Positions 1-10,669 of a DNA stretch of 10,737 nucleotides are shown here, in pieces. The translations under genes and the position numbers were made by a program. The stretch is from Chloroflexota bacterium. GTDB taxonomy: Bacteria > Chloroflexota > DTOL01 > JACQYG01. Location of the stretch: positions 1-10,737 of the forward strand of contig JACQYG010000221.1 in the NCBI GenBank assembly GCA_016208345.1. The letters run 5' to 3'. The notes below the pieces were generated by a model. The model did not search any database and was not told where the DNA came from. It saw only the letters and a list, made by a program, of their open reading frames with translations. Numbering within the stretch: the first letter of the stretch is position 1; each line of letters begins with the position of its first letter.

Positions 1-62
1 AACAGATCTAGATCGCGGATCAGAGCAGACCCAGATCGGATGTCACAAGAGGAGTGAGACAA

Positions 63-1832
63 ATGGCAGACAAGGCTATCTACACGAAGATGATCAACGA
101 GTCGGCTGCAGCAGCCGACGCAGACCTGGAGGTCATTCGAAGGAAGCGTGGTGGCCCCTTCGTGTTCACCGATGCCAAGCCCTATGTGGATGCCGTCAAT
201 GGCATGAAGCCGGGCGCTGGGCAGTCGAAGGAAGTGTTCGACTTGCACGTTCAGTCGGTGAACGCCCACTACGATATCTTCACGAAGATCTCCGTCAACG
301 GCACCATCCGGCCGGAGGATGACCCGTTCGTCGAGCACTACCAGACGCCGCCCATCCTGGAGATCCTCTACGACGAGGACAAGGATTTCAAGGCGTCGAT
401 GTGGAAGTTCATCGATGCCATCGCCGAGAACCGGGCCCTCATCGGCCGTGAGGCGGTCGCCCGCTACGGCGGAATGTATGGCCCGACCTGCGTCGTGGAC
501 TTCGCCTTCTCCGTCGGCTCGACCTCCAACGTGGTGAACCGCATCCTGCGTGGGTTGGACATCCCCAAGGACCACAAGCGCACCATCCTGGCCGCTAAGT
601 CTTGGGGCATGAACACCTCGTACGGCCTGGGAGGGGCCTTCCGGGCCGCATTGCAGGCGGGCAAGACCGTGGCCGAGGCCGAGAAGGCCGAGATCGACAT
701 GCTGCAGTTCATCTACCGCGAGCCGTCGGCGGCCCAGACGCAGTTGATGAAGACGCACAACCTGGGCGGGCACGGCCCCCACACCTCGTTCGACACCACC
801 GAGTACATGAAGCAGTACAAGGAACGGATGAAGCCCTATATCCTGGCCGCTGTCAAGGCGGGGGTGCATCCGGGCAACATCGTGACCGTTCCGGCCTACT
901 GCGTGGGCGACGTCGGCCACCACCTCGGCCCGGCGACCTTCAACATGTTCAAGGACGACATGGTGTTCGGCATCTACGAGGCCGTCACCAGGGTGTACGA
1001 GAACACCTTGCGGAAGGGCCTGGAGTTGGACGCCTACAAGAGCGAGTGGGACGTGCTGGGCGTCGCCACCGGCGCGGCCGCCTGCGCCGTGGCCTACATC
1101 CTGTGGCTCGACTCCTTCACCGTGCCGATGGTGATCGACCTGTTCAACAAGCGCTTCCACAACTACGCGGCCATGAACCCTGGGCGCGGAGAAGCGGACG
1201 AGCTGCACAACGCCGACTTCATGGACATCCTGAAGCGCGGTGAGGAAATCCTGGAGATCGAGCCGAAGGGTGGCGGTGCCAAGATCAAGGGTATTCCGGT
1301 TGACCTCAGCCCGGTGGACAAGCACGAGGTCATCATGAACCCGCAGCGCTACACCTACCCGGCCTGCGCCATCACCCAGCGCTTCGCGGCCCTGATGAGC
1401 CTGTCCGACTACCCGTGCTTCCTGACCACCGAGTGCGTCACCGCGACGCTCATGACCAACATCATCGCACTGTCGCCGACCAAGGTGGCTGCGCCGGTCC
1501 GGACGTGCAAGGACTGCGCGACGACCACCCTGATCAAGCGCAACGTGCCCTACATGAAGGCCTTCGGCAAGGAGGCCAAGGGCCTGTGCCAGTGGGAGAG
1601 GCCAAGGGTCTGTGCCAGTGGGACGTGGCGGTCTAGCGCTGGCGCGTTAGGATTCGACGTACGGGGCGCATCCCACGATGCGGGGATGCGCCCCGTGCTC
1701 TACCACCGATCAGATCAAGAAACACCCAGCAAAGATGCAAATGGTGCCTGCTGGGTGATGCCCACACAGTACATCACAACCCCTTGCTTCCCACCCATTG
1801 TCCATGGCGGGCTGGTGACAGGAAGCGCCTGA
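63..1832 (+). CDS. DUF2193 family protein, 3' end frameshifted by a tandem duplication
   Basis: I recognise this as DUF2193, a family of about 500 residues known mainly from methanogenic archaea and of unknown function; recognition is from memory of the family. The ATG at 63 is preferred over the in-frame GTG at 54 because AGGAG at 50-54 sits 8 bases before it. The body is soluble-looking, with cysteines toward the C-terminus, including C435 and a C482-K-D-C485 pair that could bind metal or a cluster. As sequenced, the frame is 589 residues, but the last 70 or so look unlike coding sequence. A 26-bp direct repeat at 1572-1623 shifts the frame; with one copy removed the protein would end at the TAG at 1634-1636, giving 515 residues with C-terminal GLCQWDVAV. 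A hairpin 24 bases after that stop supports the shorter form. It lies upstream of the mtdB promoter, so it is probably a separate transcript. A role linked to H4MPT chemistry is inferred from context only. Confidence 0.7.
   Translation: MADKAIYTKMINESAAAADADLEVIRRKRGGPFVFTDAKPYVDAVNGMKPGAGQSKEVFDLHVQSVNAHYDIFTKISVNGTIRPEDDPFVEHYQTPPILEILYDEDKDFKASMWKFIDAIAENRALIGREAVARYGGMYGPTCVVDFAFSVGSTSNVVNRILRGLDIPKDHKRTILAAKSWGMNTSYGLGGAFRAALQAGKTVAEAEKAEIDMLQFIYREPSAAQTQLMKTHNLGGHGPHTSFDTTEYMKQYKERMKPYILAAVKAGVHPGNIVTVPAYCVGDVGHHLGPATFNMFKDDMVFGIYEAVTRVYENTLRKGLELDAYKSEWDVLGVATGAAACAVAYILWLDSFTVPMVIDLFNKRFHNYAAMNPGRGEADELHNADFMDILKRGEEILEIEPKGGGAKIKGIPVDLSPVDKHEVIMNPQRYTYPACAITQRFAALMSLSDYPCFLTTECVTATLMTNIIALSPTKVAAPVRTCKDCATTTLIKRNVPYMKAFGKEAKGLCQWERPRVCASGTWRSSAGALGFDVRGASHDAGMRPVLYHRSDQETPSKDANGACWVMPTQYITTPCFPPIVHGGLVTGSA
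1572..1623 (+). repeat. 26-bp tandem duplication at the 3' end of the DUF2193 gene
   Basis: Bases 1572-1597 and 1598-1623 are the same 26-bp unit, differing only at 1583 (C) versus 1609 (T). Both units read E-A-K-G-L-C-Q-W when each is put in the ancestral frame, and the single difference is a silent glycine change (GGC/GGT). Because 26 is not a multiple of three, the second copy is read out of frame in the sequence as given. A silent difference between the copies suggests either an old duplication or two strain variants joined end to end by an assembler. Confidence 0.93.
1661..1696 (+). terminator. Strong hairpin, probable transcript end of the DUF2193 gene
   Basis: ACGGGGCGCATCCC (1661-1674) pairs perfectly with GGGATGCGCCCCGT (1683-1696), a 14-bp stem with an 8-base loop. 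No T-run follows (GCTCTACC), so it is not a classic intrinsic terminator; it may stabilise an mRNA 3' end or assist termination. It lies 24 bases after the likely original stop at 1636 and inside the frameshifted extension, which argues the extension is not real coding sequence. Confidence 0.6.
1723..1757 (+). other. Second, weaker inverted repeat after the DUF2193 gene
   Basis: CACCCAGCA (1723-1731) is the exact reverse complement of TGCTGGGTG (1749-1757), separated by 17 bases. It follows the stronger hairpin at 1661-1696 and may be part of the same transcript-end region. No T-run follows. It could be a chance match. Confidence 0.35.
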
Positions 1833-2001: not shown

Positions 2002-2856
2002 ATGGAGAAACTGCTGATCCAAATGGACAGTGACAAGTTTGCCAGCTCCTTTGACTGCATCACCGCCTACGACGCTGGGGTGGACCACGTGCTCGGTTAC
2101 GGCGGGGTCACTCTGGAAGACGTGCGCAATCTGGTCTATGGCGGCATGTTCACCCGCGGCGGCGAGGCACTTAAGAATACTGCAATCTTCATCGGTGGTT
2201 CGTCGGTGCCGGTGGGTGAGGCGATGCTGAAGGCCGTGCTGGATGCTTTCTTCGGTCCGGTGCGCGTGTCAGTGATGGCCGACCCCAATGGGTCCAATAC
2301 CACCGCCGCCGCTGCTGTCTTGAAGATCGTCCGCGCGGTGCCGGTGGCGGGCAAGCGCGCGGTCATCTTCGCCGGCACTGGCCCGGTTGGGATTCGTGCC
2401 GCCACCCTGCTTGCGAAGGAAGGCTGCCAGGTCGCTATCACCTCCCGTGCTCTGGACCGCGCCCAGAGCACAAGCCAGCCTATTCGGGAGCGCTTTAACC
2501 TGGACGTAACCCCCCTGGAGGTTAGGGACGATGCGGCTAGCGTGCGGGCTCTGGAAGGCACGCACATCGTCCTGACCACCGGCGCAGCCGGGGTCGAGCT
2601 GGTGAAGAAGGAGCTCTGGGCGGCTTCCCCCAGCGTCGAGGTGATCGCCGACGTGAACGCCGTGCCGCCCACCGGCATCGGAGGGATCAAGCCGACCGAC
2701 GACGGTAAGGAGCGGGAAGGCAAGCTAGCCTTCGGCGCTATAGGTATCGGCGGCCTGAAGATGAAGATCCACCGAGCCGCAGTGGCCAAGCTTTTCGAGG
2801 CTAGCGACCTGGTCCTGGATGTCGAGGAGATCTACGAGATCGGCAAGGCGTTATGA
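2002..2856 (+). CDS. mtdB: NAD(P)-dependent methylene-H4MPT dehydrogenase (MtdB/MtdA family)
   Basis: The product (284 residues) oxidises methylene-H4MPT to methenyl-H4MPT with NAD(P)+ in the cytoplasm. Evidence is the family N-terminal block QMDSDKFASSFDCITAYDAG (residues 7-26), a Rossmann motif GTGPVG (125-130) followed by SR at 148-149 at the end of the second strand, a pair often linked to NADP binding, the block ADVNAVPPTGIGGI (216-229), and GAIGIGGLKMKIH (245-257), whose lysines match the region of the proposed catalytic lysine in MtdA. Length fits the family. The start is fixed by AAAGGAG at 1987-1993. It is the first gene after the promoter at 1857-1885 and supplies the substrate for Mch, whose gene begins at 10666. 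Whether it prefers NAD or NADP, or also uses tetrahydrofolate as MtdA can, cannot be read here. Confidence 0.92.
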   Translation: MEKLLIQMDSDKFASSFDCITAYDAGVDHVLGYGGVTLEDVRNLVYGGMFTRGGEALKNTAIFIGGSSVPVGEAMLKAVLDAFFGPVRVSVMADPNGSNTTAAAAVLKIVRAVPVAGKRAVIFAGTGPVGIRAATLLAKEGCQVAITSRALDRAQSTSQPIRERFNLDVTPLEVRDDAASVRALEGTHIVLTTGAAGVELVKKELWAASPSVEVIADVNAVPPTGIGGIKPTDDGKEREGKLAFGAIGIGGLKMKIHRAAVAKLFEASDLVLDVEEIYEIGKAL

Positions 2857-2893: not shown

Positions 2894-3034
2894 GTGGTCG
2901 AGTGCCCGGTTTGCCTGAGGGACGTCGAGTTGAGCGCCAGTGCCAGGGAAGGGGACGTCATCCAGTGCCCCTTCTGCAAGATATGGTTCAAGCTGGTCAA
3001 GGTCAACGGGGAACTGGTTGGAGAGCGGATCTAG
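2894..3034 (+). CDS. 46-residue zinc-ribbon protein, LysW-like
   Basis: A GTG start at 2894 is preceded by GGAGG at 2883-2887, and the frame runs 46 residues to TAG at 3032-3034, 37 bases after mtdB. The product begins MVECPVC and has a second pair CPFC (residues 25-28), giving C4-x2-C7 and C25-x2-C28, a four-cysteine zinc ribbon. The spacing and opening resemble LysW, the carrier protein on whose C-terminal glutamate the amino group of lysine or arginine intermediates is masked by an ATP-grasp ligase (LysX). An ATP-grasp gene lies 1.2 kb downstream. However, the C-terminus here is GELVGERI and lacks the acidic E-D-W-G-E type tail of true LysW, so carrier function is not shown. It may instead be a small metal-binding or regulatory protein. 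Confidence 0.75.
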   Translation: MVECPVCLRDVELSASAREGDVIQCPFCKIWFKLVKVNGELVGERI

Positions 3035-3094
3035 GGTGATCCCGGTTGGGGTCCGTAGAATGGCCGCTGAAATAGCCCACAAGGAGGATTCAGC

Positions 3095-4186
3095 ATGGCA
3101 AGGACAATCGGCATTGATCCTGGGACAGTGAGTTTCGACGTGTGCGGGCTGGATGATGGGCGGGTGTTCCTGGACACTAGCCTGCCCTCGCCAGAGTTCG
3201 CTGCCAACCCCCAGACATTGATTGATCTGCTGCAATCAGCTCAGCCGGTGGACTTGATCGCCGCCCCGTCTGGTTACGGCCTGCCCCTGGTGCCCATCGA
3301 AAAGTTCGGGGATCAGGAGCGCTTCCTCTTCACCCTGGTAGACGAGCGCGAACGGGGCAGGATTCCCGTGCTGGGCGGGATGGGCAAGATGATCCCCCTG
3401 ATGAAAGTCAGCGGGCTGCCCCTTCTCTTCATCCCCGGCGTGATCCACCTGCCTACGGTGCCAGAGCACCGTAAGGCCAACAAGCTGGACATGGGCACTG
3501 CCGACAAGCTCTGCTGCCTGGCGCTTGGCATCTACGACCAGGCCCGGCATTACGGCATCAGTTATCAGGAGACCTCTTTCATCTTCGCCGAGGTGGGCGG
3601 GGCCTACACCGCGGTGATGGCCGTGGCCGGGGGCAAGGTGGTGGACGGCCTGGGCGGGACGGTGGGTGGTCCGGGCTACTACTCCCTGGGCAGCATGGAT
3701 GCAGAGCTGGCCTACCTGCTGGGTGGTTTTCACAAAGAGCTCCTCTTCACCGGTGGGGCGGCCTACGTGGCCGGCCGCCCGGAGTTGTCGCCGGAGGATT
3801 TTGCCGACCTGGCCGAGAGAGACGGACGCGCCCGAATGGCTTGGGAAGCCCTCATGGAAGGTGTGGTCAAGAGCGTGGCCGCAGAGTTGGTGACGGTGCC
3901 AAACCCACGGGAGATCTTGATCTCGGGCCGGCTCTGCCGCACGGAGAAGATCCGCCAGGAGCTAACCCGCAGGCTTTCGACCTTCGGTCCCGTGCGCCGG
4001 GTGGAGGGCTTCGCCCAGGTGGCCAAGGAGGCTGCTCAGGGCGCCGCCCTCATCGCCGACGGCCTGGCTGGCGGGCTATATGCTGGGCTGGTAGATGTGA
4101 TGGAGATTCGCGGCGCGGCGGGCACCGTCCTCGACCATCTTCACGTCCGCGACAGCGCAGCGATCAAACAGAAATACCTTGGTTGA
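3095..4186 (+). CDS. DUF1464 family protein, ASKHA-fold kinase-like
   Basis: The product (363 residues) matches DUF1464, a family of about 350 residues known chiefly from archaea and annotated only as a predicted butyrate kinase. It shows features of the ASKHA (acetate and sugar kinase/Hsc70/actin) fold: a phosphate-1 loop IGIDPGTVSFDV (residues 5-16), the block KLDMGTADKL (130-139), a phosphate-2-like segment FAEVGGAYTAVMAV (164-177), and C-terminal ISGRL (276-280) with a glycine-rich helix region 304-327. AAGGAGG at 3081-3087 fixes the start. The substrate is unknown. Its place between mtdB and the fwd genes suggests a role in making or charging a C1 cofactor; the methanofuran enzyme MfnF also belongs to the ASKHA superfamily, but I see no close match to it. 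A butyrate kinase role is not supported by the neighbours. Confidence 0.8.
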   Translation: MARTIGIDPGTVSFDVCGLDDGRVFLDTSLPSPEFAANPQTLIDLLQSAQPVDLIAAPSGYGLPLVPIEKFGDQERFLFTLVDERERGRIPVLGGMGKMIPLMKVSGLPLLFIPGVIHLPTVPEHRKANKLDMGTADKLCCLALGIYDQARHYGISYQETSFIFAEVGGAYTAVMAVAGGKVVDGLGGTVGGPGYYSLGSMDAELAYLLGGFHKELLFTGGAAYVAGRPELSPEDFADLAERDGRARMAWEALMEGVVKSVAAELVTVPNPREILISGRLCRTEKIRQELTRRLSTFGPVRRVEGFAQVAKEAAQGAALIADGLAGGLYAGLVDVMEIRGAAGTVLDHLHVRDSAAIKQKYLG

Positions 4187-4195
4187 GCGCGCTGG

Positions 4196-5359
4196 ATGCG
4201 CATCCTGATCACCGGGGTCAGCACCAGAGCCATTGCCGAGTCGGCCAGGGCGTCCGGCTACGACTTCATCACCCTGGACTACTTCGGCGACTATGATCAG
4301 AAGAGCTGGTGCCAGAACTACTCCCTGAAGCGGGACTTTGAGCTCCCCTTCAGTTCAGCGGCGCTCTATACCGCTAGTCAGGGTTTGGCCTTTGAGGCCG
4401 TGGCTTACACATCTAACCTGGAGAACCACCCCGAGGTGGTGGCGAGGTTTGCTGCCGGCCCCGGAGAGGGGAAACGCCCCCGGCTGTTGGGCAACAGCGT
4501 CGCCGTGCTCGCCCGAGTGCGGCACTGGCCCACCTTTTTCGGTTTCCTCCGGCGGCAGGGGATCCCGGTGCCGGAGACGATCTACGAGGGCCAATGTCCC
4601 CCCCGCGATGCCCCACGCCGCTGGCTGCGCAAGCCGGTCCGCAGCGGGGGCGGTCACAGCATCTCTTTCTGGCCGGAGGACCAGCCGCCGGGAAAAGGGT
4701 TCATTCTGCAGGAGTACGTCCGGGGGACAGCTTGCTCGGCCTCGTTTGTGGCGGATGGCCGGGAGTGCGTGGTCCTGGGGCTGACGGAGCAACTCATCGG
4801 CCTGCCGGAGTTCGCCAGCGGGAGGTTCCGTTATTGCGGGAACATCCTGCCTCTGATCGTAGAAGACGAGGCAGGGCAGACAACGCTGCTGGCCCAGGTC
4901 CGGCAGATCGCCGGCAGCCTGACCCGGGAGTTCGGCCTGGTGGGGGTCAATGGGCTGGATTTCGTGCTCAACGACGGACAGGTCTACCCGCTGGAGGTCA
5001 ACCCCCGCTATTCGGCCTCGATGGAACTGGTCGAACGGGCTTACGGCCTGTCCATCTTCGACCTGCACGTGCGGGCTGTCATACAGGGGGAGCTGCCGGA
5101 TTTCGACCTGGCTCTGGCTGGTGGGCTGGCCAGCGCGCGTTTCCATGGCAAGGCGATCCTGTACGCTGAGAGAGATGGCCGGGCGCCGGATACGCGGGAC
5201 TGGCCGGAGCGTGGGGTCCGAGATGTGCCCTTTCCAGGCGAGAGCCTGACTCAGGGTGGGCCGATCTGCACCGTGCTGGCTTGTGAGCCCACGCGTGACG
5301 CCTGCTTTGCCAGCTTAGTCGCCCACGCTAAGGCGCTCCAAGGAGAGATCTATGCCTGA
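4196..5359 (+). CDS. ATP-grasp ligase (COG2232-like), possible cofactor biosynthesis
   Basis: The product (387 residues) has an N-terminal nucleotide-fold segment beginning MRILITGVSTRAIAESA and an ATP-grasp core: lysine K146 before the flexible loop SGGGHSI (150-156), the hinge block LQEYVRG (171-177), and the Mg-binding residues D255 in NGLDFVL and E267/N269 in LEVNPRYS. ATP-grasp enzymes join a carboxylate to an amine or thiol through an acyl-phosphate. The overall form recalls COG2232; as I remember it, the Orf17 protein in H4MPT gene clusters of methylotrophs belongs there. A role in adding glutamate or another group to methanofuran or H4MPT is inferred. The ATG is 9 bases after the upstream stop, in the same frame, without a visible Shine-Dalgarno site, so it probably depends on translational coupling. 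Its 3' end overlaps fwdD by 8 bases. Confidence 0.8.
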   Translation: MRILITGVSTRAIAESARASGYDFITLDYFGDYDQKSWCQNYSLKRDFELPFSSAALYTASQGLAFEAVAYTSNLENHPEVVARFAAGPGEGKRPRLLGNSVAVLARVRHWPTFFGFLRRQGIPVPETIYEGQCPPRDAPRRWLRKPVRSGGGHSISFWPEDQPPGKGFILQEYVRGTACSASFVADGRECVVLGLTEQLIGLPEFASGRFRYCGNILPLIVEDEAGQTTLLAQVRQIAGSLTREFGLVGVNGLDFVLNDGQVYPLEVNPRYSASMELVERAYGLSIFDLHVRAVIQGELPDFDLALAGGLASARFHGKAILYAERDGRAPDTRDWPERGVRDVPFPGESLTQGGPICTVLACEPTRDACFASLVAHAKALQGEIYA

Positions 5360-5690
5360 CGGGAAGCTGACCCTTATCACCGGCCGCAGCCTGAAGCAGG
5401 GCACCGGGTTGAACAAGGGCAAAGACTCTTCTGAGTACCGGGAGGCAGTCACCACCGTGGAGATGAACGGTGGGGACATGACCCGCTTGGGACTGTGCGA
5501 TGGAGACCTGGTGAAGATTAAGACGTCACATGGCGAAGCGACCGTCCAGTGCCGGCGCGCCGAACTGCCAGAAGGCATGGCGTTCATCGCCTACGGCCCC
5601 CTGTCGAGCTGTCTGATCGGAGCCGAAACCCACGCTTCTGGCATGCCCGACTCCAAAGGGCTTGAGGTGGAGATGGAGCGGATCAGCTGA
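5352..5690 (+). CDS. fwdD: Formylmethanofuran dehydrogenase subunit D (molybdopterin-dinucleotide-binding)
   Basis: This 112-residue protein is the FwdD/FmdD subunit, which forms the C-terminal half of the Mo/W-pterin site completed by FwdB. Recognisable blocks are LITGRSLKQGTGLNKGKDS (residues 8-26), the beta-barrel turn LCDGDLVKIKT (48-58), and the pterin-binding end AYGPLSSCL (80-88) plus ETHASGMPDSKG (92-103), strongly like archaeal FwdD. AAGGAGAG at 5340-5347 fixes the start, and the gene overlaps the ATP-grasp gene by 8 bases, so they are translated together. The Fhc complex of aerobic methylotrophs has no such subunit, as it lost the pterin; its presence here predicts a redox-active enzyme. 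Confidence 0.92.
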   Translation: MPDGKLTLITGRSLKQGTGLNKGKDSSEYREAVTTVEMNGGDMTRLGLCDGDLVKIKTSHGEATVQCRRAELPEGMAFIAYGPLSSCLIGAETHASGMPDSKGLEVEMERIS

Positions 5691-5694
5691 CCCA

Positions 5695-5721
5695 CCCCGC
5701 ACACCTTCCAGGGGTGCGGGG
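5695..5721 (+). other. Hairpin between fwdD and fwdB
   Basis: CCCCGCAC (5695-5702) pairs with GTGCGGGG (5714-5721), an 8-bp GC-rich stem in the 49-base gap between the two genes. No T-run follows, and the fwdB ribosome site TAAGGA lies at 5728-5733, just after it. It may tune mRNA stability or the amounts of D and B, or partly end transcription. Confidence 0.45.
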
Positions 5722-5739
5722 GCAATGTAAGGAAAAAGA

Positions 5740-7032
5740 ATGCAAATTGACCACGTCGTCTGTGCTTTCTGCGGCTGCGTGTGCGATGACCTGACGGTGA
5801 CGCTGGAAGACGGGCGTGTAACGGGGGTCAAACAGGCCTGTGCCCTGGGGCGGGCCTGGCTACTTGGCCACAGCGCGGAGGCCGACCAGCCGCCGGCGTT
5901 GATAGATGGTCAGCCTGCCAGCCTGGAGGAGGCGGTGGAGGTCGCGGCGCAGATTCTCTCCCAGGCGCGCTACCCCCTGATCTACGGCCTGAGCAGCACC
6001 TATTGCGAGGCCCAACGCCAGGCAGTTGCCCTGGCAGACCTGCTGGGGGCGACCATCGACTGCTGCACCTCGGTGTGCCACGGCCCATCGGGCATCGCAA
6101 TGCAAGTCGTCGGTGAACCAACCTGCACGCTGGGCGAGGTGAAAAATCGGGCGGATCTGCTCATCTACTGGGGGTCAAACCCCGCCGAGTCTCACCCGCT
6201 GCACTTCGCACGCTACGCGGTCACGCCTAAGGGCTTGTTCATCCCTCGCGGACGCAAGGACCGCACGGTGGTGCTGGTGGACGTGCGACCAACGGCCAGC
6301 GCCCGCGCCGCCGACATCTTCCTGCAGATCAAGCCGGGCCGGGACTTCGAGTGCCTGTGGGCTTTGCGCGCCCTGATCCGCGGTCTCGATCTGGAGGAGA
6401 GCGCCGTGGCGGACACGGGCCTCACGCTGGCGCAGCTCCAGGACCTGGCAGGGCGGATGAAGTCGTGCCGGTTCGGTGTACTGTTTGTGGGCCAGGGCCT
6501 GACCCAAAGCCGGGGCAAGCAGATGAACACCGCCGCCGCGTTTATGCTGGTGCGTGATCTCTACGCCCACACCAAATTCGCCGTTATCCCAATGCGCGGA
6601 CATGGCAACGTGACCGGCATTGACAACGTACTCTCCTGGCAGACGGGCTATCCCTTCGGTGTTAATTTCAGCCGCGGGTATCCCCGCTTCAATCCGGGCG
6701 AGTTCACGGCGGTGGATGTCCTGGGCCGCGGCGAGGCTGACGCGGCGTTGATCGTGGCTTCGGACCCGGTGGCAACCCTGCCGCGGGTGGCCGCGCGGCG
6801 CCTGGCGCAGATTCCCACGGTAGCGCTGGACACCCACGGGAGCGAAACCACCAAAGTTGCCAGAGTGGTCATTACTACCGCCCCGGCCGGTATCAGCGCC
6901 GAGGGAACTATCTACCGCATGGACAACGTGCCATTGCGCCTGCGCAAGTTCCTGCCCTCTCCCTACCCTAGCGACGAAGAGGTACTCGGCCGCATCGTGG
7001 AGCGGGTCACCCAGTTGCGCGCGAGGAACTGA
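5740..7032 (+). CDS. fwdB: Formylmethanofuran dehydrogenase subunit B (Mo/W catalytic subunit)
   Basis: The product (430 residues) is the molybdopterin-oxidoreductase-like subunit that reduces CO2 to formate or oxidises formate inside the FwdABCD complex. N-terminal cysteines C8, C11, C15 and C34 (CAFCGCVCDD, then KQAC) match the [4Fe-4S] site. C113 in SVCHGPSG matches the cysteine (selenocysteine in some homologs) that ligates Mo or W. Later pterin-fold blocks include IYWGSNPAESHP (around 147-158), VDVRPTASARAADI, and FAVIPMRGHGNVTGIDNVL. Length equals archaeal FwdB. Bacterial FhcB of methylotrophs lacks the metal centre, so this copy is of the archaeal, redox-active kind. TAAGGA at 5728-5733 precedes the ATG. 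It is followed by a 117-base gap holding an inverted-repeat element. Mo versus W cannot be told from sequence alone. Confidence 0.93.
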   Translation: MQIDHVVCAFCGCVCDDLTVTLEDGRVTGVKQACALGRAWLLGHSAEADQPPALIDGQPASLEEAVEVAAQILSQARYPLIYGLSSTYCEAQRQAVALADLLGATIDCCTSVCHGPSGIAMQVVGEPTCTLGEVKNRADLLIYWGSNPAESHPLHFARYAVTPKGLFIPRGRKDRTVVLVDVRPTASARAADIFLQIKPGRDFECLWALRALIRGLDLEESAVADTGLTLAQLQDLAGRMKSCRFGVLFVGQGLTQSRGKQMNTAAAFMLVRDLYAHTKFAVIPMRGHGNVTGIDNVLSWQTGYPFGVNFSRGYPRFNPGEFTAVDVLGRGEADAALIVASDPVATLPRVAARRLAQIPTVALDTHGSETTKVARVVITTAPAGISAEGTIYRMDNVPLRLRKFLPSPYPSDEEVLGRIVERVTQLRARN

Positions 7033-7059
7033 CGTGTAGCATAGAGCGTAAATCAAGGA

Positions 7060-7127
7060 TTACCGCCGAGAACGCAGAGCTCGCAGAGATCTCTATAATT
7101 TCTCTGCGGTCTCTGCGTGCTGCGGTA
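7060..7127. repeat. CGCAGAG-type inverted repeat, copy A (between fwdB and fwdA)
   Basis: The left arm (about 7060-7089, starting TTACCGCCGAGAACGCAGAG) and right arm (about 7100-7127, ending in CTGCGGTAA) are imperfect reverse complements around a short AT-rich loop. Each arm contains short tandem units of the form CGCAGAG. The same element occurs again at 8835-8905. It carries no gene. Similar CTCTGCG/CGCAGAG repeats are dispersed in many Chloroflexota and other environmental genomes, as I recall; they are probably small non-autonomous mobile or REP-like elements. In RNA it would form a long hairpin between the two cistrons. The TATAAT in the loop (7094-7099) has no matching -35 box. Confidence 0.8.
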
Positions 7128-7149
7128 AAGCAGCTAAAAGAGATGACGG

Positions 7150-8778
7150 GTGCTCAGAATCATTAACGGCGAAGTCTATGATCCCCTGAACGGAGTCAAC
7201 GGCGAAGTGCGGGACGTTTGCGCGGCGGACGGCAAGATTGTTTCCGAGGCGCCGGACGGTAAGGTCATTGACGCTCAGGGGATGGTTGTCATGCCCGGCG
7301 GCATTGAGTTCCACGCCCACGTCGCCGGCGGCAAAGTGAACGCCGGCCGCAAGATGAGGCCCGAGGATCACCGGGAAATGGCCATTCCGCGTACGCCGCT
7401 CACCCGTTCCGGGGTCGGCCATACCGTCCCCTCCACCTTTGCCACCGGCTACCACTTCGCCCAACTGGGCTACACCACAGTCATGGAGGCAGCCGGCCCG
7501 CCGCTGGGCGCCCGGCACGTCCACGAGGAGCTCAACGACATCCCGATTCTCGACAAGGGCTTCTTCGTGCTGATGGGCAACAACTACTTTGTCCTCAAGT
7601 TCATCGCCGAAGGGGACTTTGCCAGGCTCAAGGACTATGTGGCCTGGCTGCTGGAGGCCACCGGGGGCTATGCCATCAAGATCGTCAATCCGGCGGGTGT
7701 GGATACGTGGAAGTGGGGCCGGAACGTGAACAGCCTGGACGACCCGGCCGACACTTTCCCGGTCACCCCCCGGCAGATCGTGGTCAACCTGGCTCGCGTG
7801 CAGCAAGAGCTGGGGCTGCCGCACACCATCCACGTCCACTGTAACAACCTGGGGGTGCCCGGCAACGCCCAGATCACTTTGCAGACCATGCAGGCGGTCG
7901 GCGATCTGCCCATCCACGTCACCCATGCCCAGTTCAATGGCTACGGCGGGACCGGTTGGGGTGACTTCCACTCTGGCGCGCCGGAGCTGGCAGCCTACGT
8001 CAACGAACACAAAAATGTCACGGTAGACATGGGCCAGGTGGTTTTCGGGCCGGTGACTACGATGACGGCCGATGGGCCGTGGCAATACCGGTTGTACCAG
8101 CTCTCCGGCCATAAATGGGTCAATTGTGACGTGGAGATGGAGACTAGCGCCGGCATTGTGCCATACCGGTTCAGCAAGCGCAACGCCGTCAACGCGGTCC
8201 AATGGGCGGTCGGGCTGGAGCTGGCGTTGTTGATCGAGGACCCATGGCGCGTGTTCCTGACCACCGACCACCCCAACGGCGGGCCGTTCCATGCTTATCC
8301 GGACATCATCAAGCTGTTGCTGGATCGCGACCACCGCGCTGAAGTGCTGGAAGGGGTGCACCGGGGGGCGCAAAAGCGTAGCAGCCTCAAAGATCTGCAT
8401 CGCGAATACAGCCTGTTCGAGATCGCCATCATCACGCGGGCGGGTCCGGCCCGGGCGCTGGGCTTGCGCCAGAAGGGCCACCTGGGACCAGGGGCCGACG
8501 CCGATATCGCCATCTACTCCAAGGCCGCGGACCCCAAGGAGATGTTTGCCCGTCCCCGCTACGTCATCAAGGCCGGGGAGATCGTGGCCCAAGACGGCCG
8601 TATCGTCCAGGACAAACCGGGCCGGACCTTCTACGTCGCGCCGGGCTACGACCGGCAGATTGAGTCGGCTATCCGCGACGACTTCGAGAAGTACTACACC
8701 GTGTCATTCGAGAACTACCCGGTGCAGTTTGACCATTATCTGCCACACCGCGTAGCAGTCTCCTGTGTGCGTGAATGA
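7150..8778 (+). CDS. fwdA: Formylmethanofuran dehydrogenase subunit A (amidohydrolase)
   Basis: The product (542 residues) is the dinuclear-metal amidohydrolase subunit that links formate to methanofuran, or hydrolyses formyl-methanofuran. The metal-binding residues of the family are all visible: H55 and H57 in FHAHVAGG, K177 in YAIKIVNPAG (the lysine carboxylated in archaeal FwdA), H230 in HTIHVHCNN, H256/H259 in HVTHAQFNGYGG, and D373 in TTDHPNGGPF. Length and the opening LRIINGEVYDPLNGVNGEV agree with FwdA, FmdA and FhcA. The start is GTG at 7150, chosen because the family N-terminus begins there and the upstream ATG at 7143 is in another frame and stops after seven codons. A weak AAAGAG at 7137-7142 is the only ribosome site. 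Inverted repeats lie on both sides of the gene. Confidence 0.94.
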   Translation: MLRIINGEVYDPLNGVNGEVRDVCAADGKIVSEAPDGKVIDAQGMVVMPGGIEFHAHVAGGKVNAGRKMRPEDHREMAIPRTPLTRSGVGHTVPSTFATGYHFAQLGYTTVMEAAGPPLGARHVHEELNDIPILDKGFFVLMGNNYFVLKFIAEGDFARLKDYVAWLLEATGGYAIKIVNPAGVDTWKWGRNVNSLDDPADTFPVTPRQIVVNLARVQQELGLPHTIHVHCNNLGVPGNAQITLQTMQAVGDLPIHVTHAQFNGYGGTGWGDFHSGAPELAAYVNEHKNVTVDMGQVVFGPVTTMTADGPWQYRLYQLSGHKWVNCDVEMETSAGIVPYRFSKRNAVNAVQWAVGLELALLIEDPWRVFLTTDHPNGGPFHAYPDIIKLLLDRDHRAEVLEGVHRGAQKRSSLKDLHREYSLFEIAIITRAGPARALGLRQKGHLGPGADADIAIYSKAADPKEMFARPRYVIKAGEIVAQDGRIVQDKPGRTFYVAPGYDRQIESAIRDDFEKYYTVSFENYPVQFDHYLPHRVAVSCVRE

Positions 8779-8834
8779 CATAGGGAGGATTCCAGGGTGG
8801 GCATCGAGGCACCGCCCGCTCACATGGTAGTAAC

Positions 8835-8905
8835 TTTACCGCAGAGCACGCAGAGACCGCTGAGATTTCCACTTTATTCTCTGCGTTCTCCGCGCTCTCT
8901 GCGGT
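8835..8905. repeat. CGCAGAG-type inverted repeat, copy B (between fwdA and ftr)
   Basis: The left arm (8835-8865, starting TTTACCGCAGAGCACGCAGA) and right arm (8877-8905, ending CTCTCTGCGGT) are imperfect reverse complements with an 11-base AT-rich centre. The left arm closely matches the reverse complement of the right arm of copy A (7060-7127), so B is an inverted relative of A. It fills most of the 193-base gap before ftr. A good ribosome site at 8782-8788 is stranded upstream of it, which suggests it inserted into a once-tight junction. It could act as an intercistronic RNA hairpin. Confidence 0.8.
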
Positions 8906-8971
8906 GAGTGCAGGGGCGATCCCTCATCCCCACCTCTGGTGGTCGTGGTCGCCCCTTCACGGAGTGATACG

Positions 8972-9853
8972 ATGTACATCAACGGTGTGGAGATCGAGGA
9001 CACCTTCGCCGAAGCCTTCAAGATGTGGGGCACGCGGGTCATTATTACGGCCAAGAACCGCCAGTGGGCTATGACGGCCGCGATCAAAATGACCGGCTTC
9101 GCCACCTCGGTCATCGGCTGCAAGTGCGAGGCGGGCATTGAAAGCGAGGTCACGGACACGCCGGATGGTCGCCCCGGCGTCAGCGTGCTGCTATTTACCC
9201 CGTCGAAGGACGACCTGCCTAAGCGGTTGATGGAACGCATCGGGCAATGCGTGATGACCTGCCCGACCACGGCCTGTTTCAACGGCCTTGAAAGCCCGGA
9301 CGTGCTGCCTGTCGGCGGGCAGCTCCGCTACTTCGGCGATGGCTACCAGGCTAGCAAGCTCTTGGGGGGCCGGCGGTTTTGGCGCATCCCGGTGATGGAG
9401 GGCGAGTTCCTGATCGAGGAGAAGTTTGGCATGCAACGCTCGGTGGGCGGTGGCAACTTCCTGATCCTGGGTGAGGGCCCAGACGTGACGCTGGAGGCGG
9501 CCGAGCGGGCGGTTGAGGCGATGCAGCGGGTGCGTGGGATGGTGATGCCCTTCCCAGGTGGGATCGTTCGTAGCGGCAGCAAGACCCGCTCCAAGTACAA
9601 GTTCCTGATCGCCTCGACTAACGACGCCTTCTGCCCCACACTGCGCGGGGTGGTGGAAACAGCCCTGCCCGAGGGAGTTAACTGCGTCCTGGAAATCGTC
9701 ATCGACGGGCTGGACCTGCCGGCGGTGGAGGAGGCCACCCGGTTGGGCATCCGGGCGGCGTGTATCCCGGGCATCCGACGCATCTCGGCCGGCAACTATG
9801 GCGGCACTCTGGGCCAGTTCCAGATCCACCTGCGCCGGGTCATGGAGGGCTAG
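8972..9853 (+). CDS. ftr: Formylmethanofuran:H4MPT formyltransferase
   Basis: The product transfers the formyl group between methanofuran and H4MPT; the same protein is called FhcD in bacterial methylotrophs. Starting at the ATG at 8972 gives 293 residues, close to the roughly 297 of the family, and the N-terminus MYINGVEIEDTFAEAF matches it; the in-frame GTG at 8939 would add 11 unrelated residues. GGAG at 8961-8964 supports this start. Family blocks include RVIITAKNRQWAMTAA (22-37), RIGQCVMTCPTTACFNG (89-105), EEKFGMQRSVGGGNFLILGE (149-168), and a C-terminal RRISAGNYGGTLGQFQIHLR segment. The next gene, fwdC, follows after 6 bases. In methylotrophs the protein is a structural part of the Fhc complex; the location between fwdA and fwdC here would fit such an association. 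Confidence 0.94.
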   Translation: MYINGVEIEDTFAEAFKMWGTRVIITAKNRQWAMTAAIKMTGFATSVIGCKCEAGIESEVTDTPDGRPGVSVLLFTPSKDDLPKRLMERIGQCVMTCPTTACFNGLESPDVLPVGGQLRYFGDGYQASKLLGGRRFWRIPVMEGEFLIEEKFGMQRSVGGGNFLILGEGPDVTLEAAERAVEAMQRVRGMVMPFPGGIVRSGSKTRSKYKFLIASTNDAFCPTLRGVVETALPEGVNCVLEIVIDGLDLPAVEEATRLGIRAACIPGIRRISAGNYGGTLGQFQIHLRRVMEG

Positions 9854-9859
9854 TTAGCG

Positions 9860-10669
9860 ATGACGACTTTGAGGCTCAAGACTTGGCCGGCCGTGCCGCT
9901 GGAGGCCGAGGCCATTACGCCGGACCGCTTCGTCGGCAAGACCAGCGCCGAAATCGAGGCCCTGCCGGTGCACCACGGCAACCAAGAAGCCGCCCTGGGT
10001 GACTTCTTCGCGGTCAGCGGCGATGGCACGCCCGACATTGCCATCGAGGGAGATCTAGCGCGGGTAAAGCTGATCGGCGCAGGCATGACCCAGGGCCAGA
10101 TCACCGTGCACGGCGACGCGGGCATGCATCTGGGCGCTGCCATGAGCGGCGGCCGGATCGGGGTTCATGGCAACGCCGGCGACTGGGCGGGCGCGGAAAT
10201 GCGCGGCGGCCAGATCTACATCCGGGGGAACGCCGGGCATGGTCTGGGGGGCGCGTATCGGGGCAGCCCCCAAGGCATGAACCGGGGCCTGATCGTCGTA
10301 GCCGGCAGCGCCGGCAACGAGGTCGGGAGCGCTATGCGACGGGGCGTGATCGTCGTCGGTGGCAACACCGGGGACTTCACCGGCGCTTTCATGATCGCCG
10401 GCTCCATTTTGGTCTTCGGCAACCTGGGCGAGCGGGCCGGCGCGGGAATGAAACGAGGCAGTATCATCACCTATCAAACGCCCAAGCTGTTGCCCACCTT
10501 CCGGTATGCGTGCACCTACCGCCCGGTTTTCCTGCGCCTGTTGCTGCGGGAGTTGCGTAGCCTGGGCCAGGAGATCGCGGAGGAGTGGTTTGAGCGGCGC
10601 TATCGGCGCTACTGCGGTGACCTGACAGCCTTTGGGAAAGGGGAGATCCTGGCCTGGGAGGGTCCATGA
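9860..10669 (+). CDS. fwdC: Formylmethanofuran dehydrogenase subunit C
   Basis: The 269-residue product is the beta-helical subunit that packs against FwdA and, in the methylotroph Fhc structure, carries the cofactor arm. The hallmark is a run of glycine-rich repeats from about residue 66 to 205 (for example HGDAGMHLGAAMSGG, HGNAGDWAGAEMRGG, GGNTGDFTGAFMIAG), a right-handed beta-helix related to the C-terminal domain of glutamate synthase. Length equals FwdC. GGAGGG at 9844-9849, inside the end of ftr, precedes the ATG. The stop overlaps the next start (ATGA at 10666-10669), so it is translationally coupled to mch. Confidence 0.93.
   Translation: MTTLRLKTWPAVPLEAEAITPDRFVGKTSAEIEALPVHHGNQEAALGDFFAVSGDGTPDIAIEGDLARVKLIGAGMTQGQITVHGDAGMHLGAAMSGGRIGVHGNAGDWAGAEMRGGQIYIRGNAGHGLGGAYRGSPQGMNRGLIVVAGSAGNEVGSAMRRGVIVVGGNTGDFTGAFMIAGSILVFGNLGERAGAGMKRGSIITYQTPKLLPTFRYACTYRPVFLRLLLRELRSLGQEIAEEWFERRYRRYCGDLTAFGKGEILAWEGP

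Follow-up and report, generated by a model that had tools for sequence, protein, structure and literature searches.

Locus organization

The Chloroflexota contig JACQYG010000221.1 (assembly GCA_016208345.1) carries, within a stretch of 10,737 nucleotides that we analysed as a whole (hereafter the window), three genes of interest in an operon for one-carbon (C1) transfer. They encode a zinc-ribbon protein, a DUF1464 protein and an ATP-grasp ligase, and lie between mtdB, the gene for methylene-tetrahydromethanopterin (H4MPT) dehydrogenase, and fwdD, in the single-strand order DUF2193, mtdB, zinc ribbon, DUF1464, ATP-grasp, fwdD, fwdB, fwdA, ftr, fwdC (Table 1). A preliminary description of this DNA had reported the tight spacing of the three genes and the overlap of the last with fwdD, and we find the order and strand as stated there, with an overlap of 8 bases. 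It had also regarded all three as lacking an assigned function. This is correct for DUF1464 and the zinc ribbon, whereas the ATP-grasp ligase is of the OrfY/MyfA type, for which a function has been published (PMC8141765). On balance, we favour the view that this part of the window brings together genes from two cofactor pathways serving the downstream operon, with a MyfA-type ATP-grasp ligase from one and DUF1464, acting in H4MPT synthesis, from the other.

The ATP-grasp ligase

The ligase was placed in a midpoint-rooted tree of 40 sequences, restricted to open reading frames of more than 290 residues. The window protein falls in a 27-row clade (support 97/98) that also contains three proteobacterial OrfY proteins and 23 sequences from bacterial DUF1464 loci; these 23 come from the 29 bacterial loci with a tblastn match, the tree leaving out L028, L030, L054, L059, L063 and L085. 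A second, MfnD-like type of ATP-grasp that adjoins MfnF-type genes forms a separate six-row clade (100/100). Both types occur together in L041, L047, L082 and L084, where the MfnD-like gene adjoins MfnF/MfnE-type genes. Seven archaeal relatives, six of Hermodarchaeota type and one from Methanosarcinales, lie outside both clades, though midpoint rooting puts them on the same side as OrfY. The window ligase shares the ATP-grasp family with MfnD, the tyramine-glutamate ligase, but its profile match is weak (28.6 bits), far under the cut-off of 400, and it belongs to the other clade. With good confidence, we assign it to the MyfA/OrfY type.

Gene order adds to this comparison. In two of three proteobacterial loci orfY lies directly 3' of mtdB, and in the window the ligase gene also follows mtdB, with two genes intervening. 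Relatives in Azoarcus and Thiodictyon sit between mtdB and mch, and that of Azospirillum, at a distance of about 12 kb from mtdB, lies upstream of a gene for a RimK-type ligase. A plasmid tblastn search with the window ligase returned 35 records, each with query coverage of at least 80%, and the 20 matches listed had 29-35% identity. Unlike the OrfY loci, the window continues from the ligase to fwdD, not mch, and has FwdD together with a FwdB bearing the CxxCxxxC motif.

According to PMC8141765, orfY (myfA) and orf5 (myfB) take part in the glutamylation of methylofuran, and a myfA mutant builds up the methylofuran core and its one-glutamate form; the role of MyfA, addition of glutamate to methylofuran that already bears one, is thus already known. 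From these mutants and the family placement we infer that the window ligase, as the counterpart of MyfA, would activate a carboxylate as an acyl phosphate and attach glutamate to a precursor of the methylofuran or methanofuran on which Fwd and Ftr depend. The earlier proposal of an ATP-grasp ligase for a methanofuran-type cofactor therefore survives, as a ligase of predicted glutamate-adding type.

The DUF1464 protein

The DUF1464 protein matches PF07318 above its curated cut-off over residues 6-349 (profile positions 1-325 of 327). Its AlphaFold2 model has a predicted local distance difference test (pLDDT) score of 92.3, and comparison with the PDB (Foldseek, VIA-align) gave acetate, propionate and butyrate kinases as best matches, placing it in the acetokinase fold. 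Residues invariant among 56 DUF1464 sequences lie at ASKHA-type loops. These model matches bear out the ASKHA-fold, kinase-like character proposed at the outset, and because of this fold it is reasonably probable that DUF1464 is a kinase. The likeness is one of fold: identity to those kinases is 10-16% in aligned rows, the score against the curated butyrate kinase family is 25.3 bits (cut-off 222), a PDB sequence search with the DUF1464 profile gave no match at E 0.01, and the gene context of DUF1464 differs in being that of C1-cofactor synthesis.

MfnF, an ASKHA-like protein (family TIGR03123), is encoded in the same gene clusters as DUF1464. Searches with the MfnF families TIGR03123 and NF040623 gave no match for DUF1464 at E up to 0.1, and a comparison of the MfnF and DUF1464 profiles found none either (probability 0.5%). 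Separately, 19 genomes belonging to one family, f17, of large-genome Chloroflexota contain weak DUF1464-like matches of 25-62 bits (L008-L024, L026 and L027), which are possibly a distant ASKHA subfamily.

Gene neighbourhoods of DUF1464

Linkage was examined in the best 80 of 93 confirmed DUF1464 loci (39 bacterial, 41 archaeal), the window excluded. Neighbours were counted around 91 genes with DUF1464 open reading frames of more than 280 residues, drawn from 68 of the 80 loci, three short loci and 20 further stretches. A search of relatives and one of 400 Chloroflexota genomes (25 with a match, 19 of them the weak f17 matches) served as sources of loci and not for linkage counts.

Bacterial and archaeal loci differ sharply. 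A gene for mtdB, fwd or ftr occurs within the stretch analysed around DUF1464 in 35 of 39 bacterial versus 0 of 41 archaeal loci (tblastn with window proteins, E 1e-4), and a related ATP-grasp in 29/39 versus 7/41. What surrounds DUF1464 in many archaeal loci are genes for RFAP synthase, DUF447, a flavoprotein, a dihydropteroate-synthase-like protein, MptA, MptE and NTP_transf_2. Of all genes lying no more than 200 bp from DUF1464, that for RFAP synthase is the most frequent (27 of 91 cases). Within 4 kb, an H4MPT-synthesis gene accompanies 59 of the 91 and a C1-transfer gene 21, with 10 having both.

In six genomes that appear to be Sulfolobales-like, genes for DUF1464, NTP_transf_2 and CitG follow one another consecutively (L117 at 5974-8598, where they overlap, L118 and L123-L126). 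Together they are candidates for making the ribosyl-phosphodiester end in cofactors of the H4MPT type.

Two other arrangements were seen. In three Chloroflexota genomes and one Dehalococcoidales contig (L004, L005, L006, L105) DUF1464 directly adjoins a radical-SAM/SPASM protein, possibly reflecting a different function of the family. A bacterial H4MPT cluster, L036, encodes HPPK fused to a FolE2/MptA-type GTP cyclohydrolase at 6528-8000, and L041 (6482-7936) looks similar by eye.

Co-occurrence across genomes

The archaeal sample comprised 151 genomes from the phylum of the Caldarchaeum genome G426, with thresholds of E 1e-20 for RFAP synthase and E 1e-40 for FwdA; DUF1464 was present in 43, RFAP synthase in 57 and FwdA in 34. 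RFAP synthase accompanied DUF1464 in 42 of 43 carriers versus 15 of 108 non-carriers (Fisher 1.9e-23, uncorrected for kinship), in 31/43 versus 14/108 under its curated cut-off, and in 40 of 41 carriers once the two weakest DUF1464 matches (G524 and G565, at 32 and 35 bits) were set aside. FwdA followed no such pattern, with 6/43 carriers versus 28/108 non-carriers (p 0.13). The nucleotidyltransferase family was found in 73 of the 151 genomes (42/43 carriers, 31/108 others) and CitG in 64 (37/43 and 27/108); both spread beyond the DUF1464 carriers and thus neither is specific to DUF1464.

Among 14 control genomes, Sulfolobus acidocaldarius alone has DUF1464. It also has RFAP synthase, without MfnF and without FwdA at E 1e-40; a FwdA match does appear in a search at E 0.001, in which only two of the controls exceed the cut-off. 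Haloferax volcanii has an RFAP synthase match and no DUF1464. In a mixed set of 37 genomes RFAP synthase was above the cut-off in 27, the ten misses being G001, G067, G080, G297, G343, G351, G403, G405, G411 and G427.

Because of the gene linkage and the co-occurrence with RFAP synthase, we consider it likely that DUF1464 acts in H4MPT synthesis, a pathway that explains it better than methanofuran synthesis does.

The zinc ribbon

At 46 residues, the zinc-ribbon protein is shorter than the 60-residue minimum of the open reading frame listing. Its gene is nevertheless a real coding gene, because it has 19 homologues at 65-83% identity and the proportion of synonymous differences (pS) exceeds that of nonsynonymous ones (pN) in 6/6 pairs from four loci. 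GGAGGGG stands immediately 5' of the GTG start, and the protein carries CPVC-x17-CPFC and ends in GERI.

The preliminary description saw in it a LysW-like zinc ribbon that might be a carrier or scaffold. The match to the LysW globular domain (PF21344) falls just short of the cut-off of 27 bits; if genuine, this domain is what the protein would share with LysW/ArgW amino-group carriers. LysW carriers have an acidic C-terminal tail ending in glutamate. The carrier model NF041070 aligned to the window protein at positions 3-41 of 57 alone, leaving the C-terminal part unmatched. In an alignment of 21 zinc-ribbon rows the C-termini are mostly of the short ERV/ERI type; none of the 21 has an acidic EDWGE-like tail, and one (P0245) has a single terminal glutamate.

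The zinc ribbon occurs in 3 of 80 other DUF1464 loci (L028, L030 and L033), always inside the gap between mtdB and DUF1464, and is not a stable partner of DUF1464 and the ATP-grasp ligase. We see it as an accessory confined to this lineage that probably serves as a small partner with a structural or regulatory part rather than carrying a substrate.

The surrounding operon

Downstream, FwdD is encoded and the CxxCxxxC motif is kept in FwdB (window 5352-7032), and these two features suggest that the complex is a genuine formylmethanofuran dehydrogenase and not the Fhc complex of methylotrophs. The arrangement fwdDBA-ftr-fwdC is known from an actinobacterium (PMC7325909). Upstream, the DUF2193 protein is about 590 residues long, and the last 90 residues, beyond the profile match, resemble read-on past a frameshift; a DUF2193 gene is present in 8 of the 39 bacterial DUF1464 loci. 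The genome containing the window is 74% complete, and the nearest loci are from Chloroflexota.

Table 1. Genes of the window and ATP-grasp/DUF1464 gene pairs of Hermodarchaeota loci
Feature	Coordinates	Strand	Profile match
DUF2193 protein	54-1832	+	match ends at residue 497
mtdB, methylene-H4MPT dehydrogenase	2002-2856	+	PF09176 (Mpt_N) 110.3 bits
46-residue zinc ribbon, GTG start, LysW-like globular domain	2894-3034	+	PF21344 E 4.1e-6, 26.8 bits
DUF1464, acetate/butyrate-kinase-like ASKHA protein, candidate H4MPT-biosynthesis kinase	3095-4186	+	PF07318 333.5 bits
ATP-grasp ligase, OrfY/MyfA type (putative methylofuran glutamate ligase by relationship)	4196-5359	+	PF02655 88.9 bits
fwdD, molybdopterin-binding subunit	5352-5690	+	NF042908 87 bits (below cut-off of 175), PF01568 44.9 bits
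fwdB, fwdA, ftr, fwdC	5740-10669	+	TIGR03129 525, TIGR03121 765, TIGR03119 425, TIGR03122 286 bits
ATP-grasp/DUF1464 pair, L065	3455-5835		
ATP-grasp/DUF1464 pair, L070	8751-11098		

Alternative explanations

Several findings weigh against the assignment of DUF1464 to H4MPT synthesis in a two-pathway stretch. Within 4 kb, 21 of the 91 DUF1464 genes have neither an H4MPT-synthesis nor a C1 gene, ANME-2/Methanosarcinales loci and the radical-SAM group among them, and no RFAP synthase was found in G080, G297, G343 and G427, the four Chloroflexota genomes in which DUF1464 adjoins a radical-SAM gene. The co-occurrence counts are all uncorrected for kinship, and outside the archaeal sample they do not tell the H4MPT pathway apart from that of methanofuran. 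FwdA and RFAP synthase are each above the cut-off in 26 of 30 locus genomes, where the misses differ except for G427 (FwdA falls below in G420, G424, G426 and G427, the first three of which have RFAP synthase), and in a Gemmatimonadota-centred sample of 150 genomes FwdA is present in 15/15 DUF1464 carriers versus 2/135 others. At the protein level, the profile alignment of DUF1464 with acetate kinase is weak (probability 6.5%); acetate kinase has substrate-binding arginines, and the arginine of AckA MGTRSGD is unmatched in DUF1464. Methanocaldococcus jannaschii and Methanosarcina acetivorans have RFAP synthase and FwdA with no DUF1464 match, and therefore either H4MPT can be made without DUF1464 in some organisms or another protein takes its place. 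No such substitute was recognised in 14 of the 15 RFAP-synthase genomes without DUF1464, a search that took in stretches from the 14 and six further stretches of some and compared only the families listed for those loci. Finally, in five Hermodarchaeota loci (L065, L070, L071, L072 and L075) an OrfY-like ATP-grasp gene lies 15-45 bp upstream of DUF1464. A two-pathway split leaves this pairing unexplained, and because of it we slightly lowered our confidence in the ATP-grasp type, the DUF1464 pathway and the overall interpretation.

In archaeal H4MPT loci without DUF1464, a family, m33, recurs beside or near the dihydropteroate-synthase-like gene (L137-L140, L142, L144 and L145). By eye, m33 resembles a membrane protein. 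No kinase stood out in the stretches from RFAP-synthase genomes without DUF1464.

The Hermodarchaeota loci bear on the idea that DUF1464 and the ATP-grasp ligase, but not the zinc ribbon, work as a functional pair on one methanofuran-like or H4MPT-like cofactor, which we keep as a rival although we consider it improbable. The two genes are direct neighbours (less than 200 bp apart, same strand) in 13 of the 91 cases, the ligase lying downstream of DUF1464 in eight bacterial loci, as in the window, and upstream in the five Hermodarchaeota. The one Hermodarchaeota ligase compared, that of L070, is a full-length relative of the window protein (27% identity across 400 columns); it scores 97 bits against PF02655, and among the matches listed none exceeds an NCBIfam cut-off. 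However, 78 of the 91 DUF1464 genes are not so arranged, 34 of 41 archaeal loci have no related ATP-grasp, and none of the plasmid collection has DUF1464, against the 35 records with the ligase. The larger unit first proposed, in which kinase, ligase and a zinc-ribbon carrier together build or glutamylate a precursor of methanofuran or of a pterin while it is attached to the carrier, is very improbable. The tight single-strand spacing, the LysW-like domain and the three loci in which the zinc ribbon precedes and the ATP-grasp follows DUF1464 (L028, L030, L033) speak for it, but the missing carrier tail and the membership of the ligase in the OrfY clade do not, and because of the narrow spread of the zinc ribbon we reject the trio as one module. 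What persists of that proposal is a part for these genes in H4MPT and methylofuran cofactor supply.

Two further readings concern DUF1464 itself. A role in methanofuran or methylofuran synthesis, for example in place of MfnF, would fit its mtdB, fwd or ftr linkage in bacteria, the FwdA counts in the locus genomes and the Gemmatimonadota-centred sample, and the absence of an MfnF match in the window's genome and a same-genus relative (74% and 84% complete). Yet 37 of the 43 archaeal-sample carriers have no FwdA at E 1e-40, Sulfolobus acidocaldarius has DUF1464 with neither FwdA at that threshold nor MfnF, and MfnF is above the cut-off in 18 of 32 DUF1464 genomes, the relatives G400 and G402 included. 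This coexistence makes DUF1464 unlikely as an MfnF substitute, and we give the methanofuran role little credence. Alternatively, DUF1464 could have a regulatory function, or could use ATP in the maturation of an enzyme that depends on H4MPT, without being biosynthetic itself. Regulators and chaperones are found among ASKHA proteins, and the unmatched arginine, as well as the two H4MPT-making model methanogens without DUF1464, count in favour. The commonest archaeal neighbours of DUF1464 are nevertheless biosynthesis genes, and its invariant residues sit at ASKHA-type loops, so that this too seems improbable to us, about as much as the functional pair.

Proposed roles and significance

Returning to DUF1464 in H4MPT synthesis, we propose that it is an acetokinase-fold protein and probably an ATP-dependent phosphotransferase of this pathway, with RFAP synthase, the dihydropteroate-synthase-like protein, MptA/MptE, CitG and the nucleotidyltransferase as putative partners. 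If so, the block of DUF1464, nucleotidyltransferase and CitG genes would point most readily to the non-pterin arm (the ribitol, ribose or acidic end), a placement that we offer tentatively and at somewhat less than even odds. CitG/CitX chemistry offers an analogy: the alpha-ribosyl unit could be added by a CitG-like enzyme and the phosphodiester closed by the nucleotidyltransferase, while DUF1464 would prepare the phosphorylated partner. The ATP-grasp ligase would meanwhile supply methylofuran, and the zinc ribbon would be an accessory of this lineage.

H4MPT and methanofuran genes are reported to be widespread, Chloroflexi included (PMC5020050). The non-pterin part of H4MPT was described in 2011 as requiring at least nine steps, and the number of proteins still unknown for methanopterin was put at about seven (PMC3087415); thus there was then room for an enzyme of the DUF1464 type. 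Our literature search, with subscription journals outside its coverage, found no paper mentioning DUF1464, COG2441, arCOG04340 or PF07318, and within the same coverage the assignment of DUF1464 to H4MPT synthesis was not found in print. The family is distributed across Asgard archaea, Nitrososphaeria, Sulfolobus and several bacterial phyla.

These placements help to sort the genes of such operons by pathway, the ATP-grasp ligase to methylofuran and DUF1464 to H4MPT, and DUF1464 becomes a concrete enzyme candidate for the non-pterin half of H4MPT synthesis, much of which was unassigned as of 2011. In its most specific and speculative form, which we think unlikely as it stands, DUF1464 would be one of the missing enzymes of that half, a kinase that phosphorylates the acidic or sugar end and thereby allows the ribosyl-phosphodiester end to be assembled by CitG and the NTP_transf_2 protein, in a manner resembling CitG/CitX or CofC/CofD. 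Were this true, DUF1464-bearing Chloroflexota, Actinomycetota, Gemmatimonadota and their relatives would make an archaeal-type phosphorylated cofactor and not the dephospho form found in methylotrophic proteobacteria.

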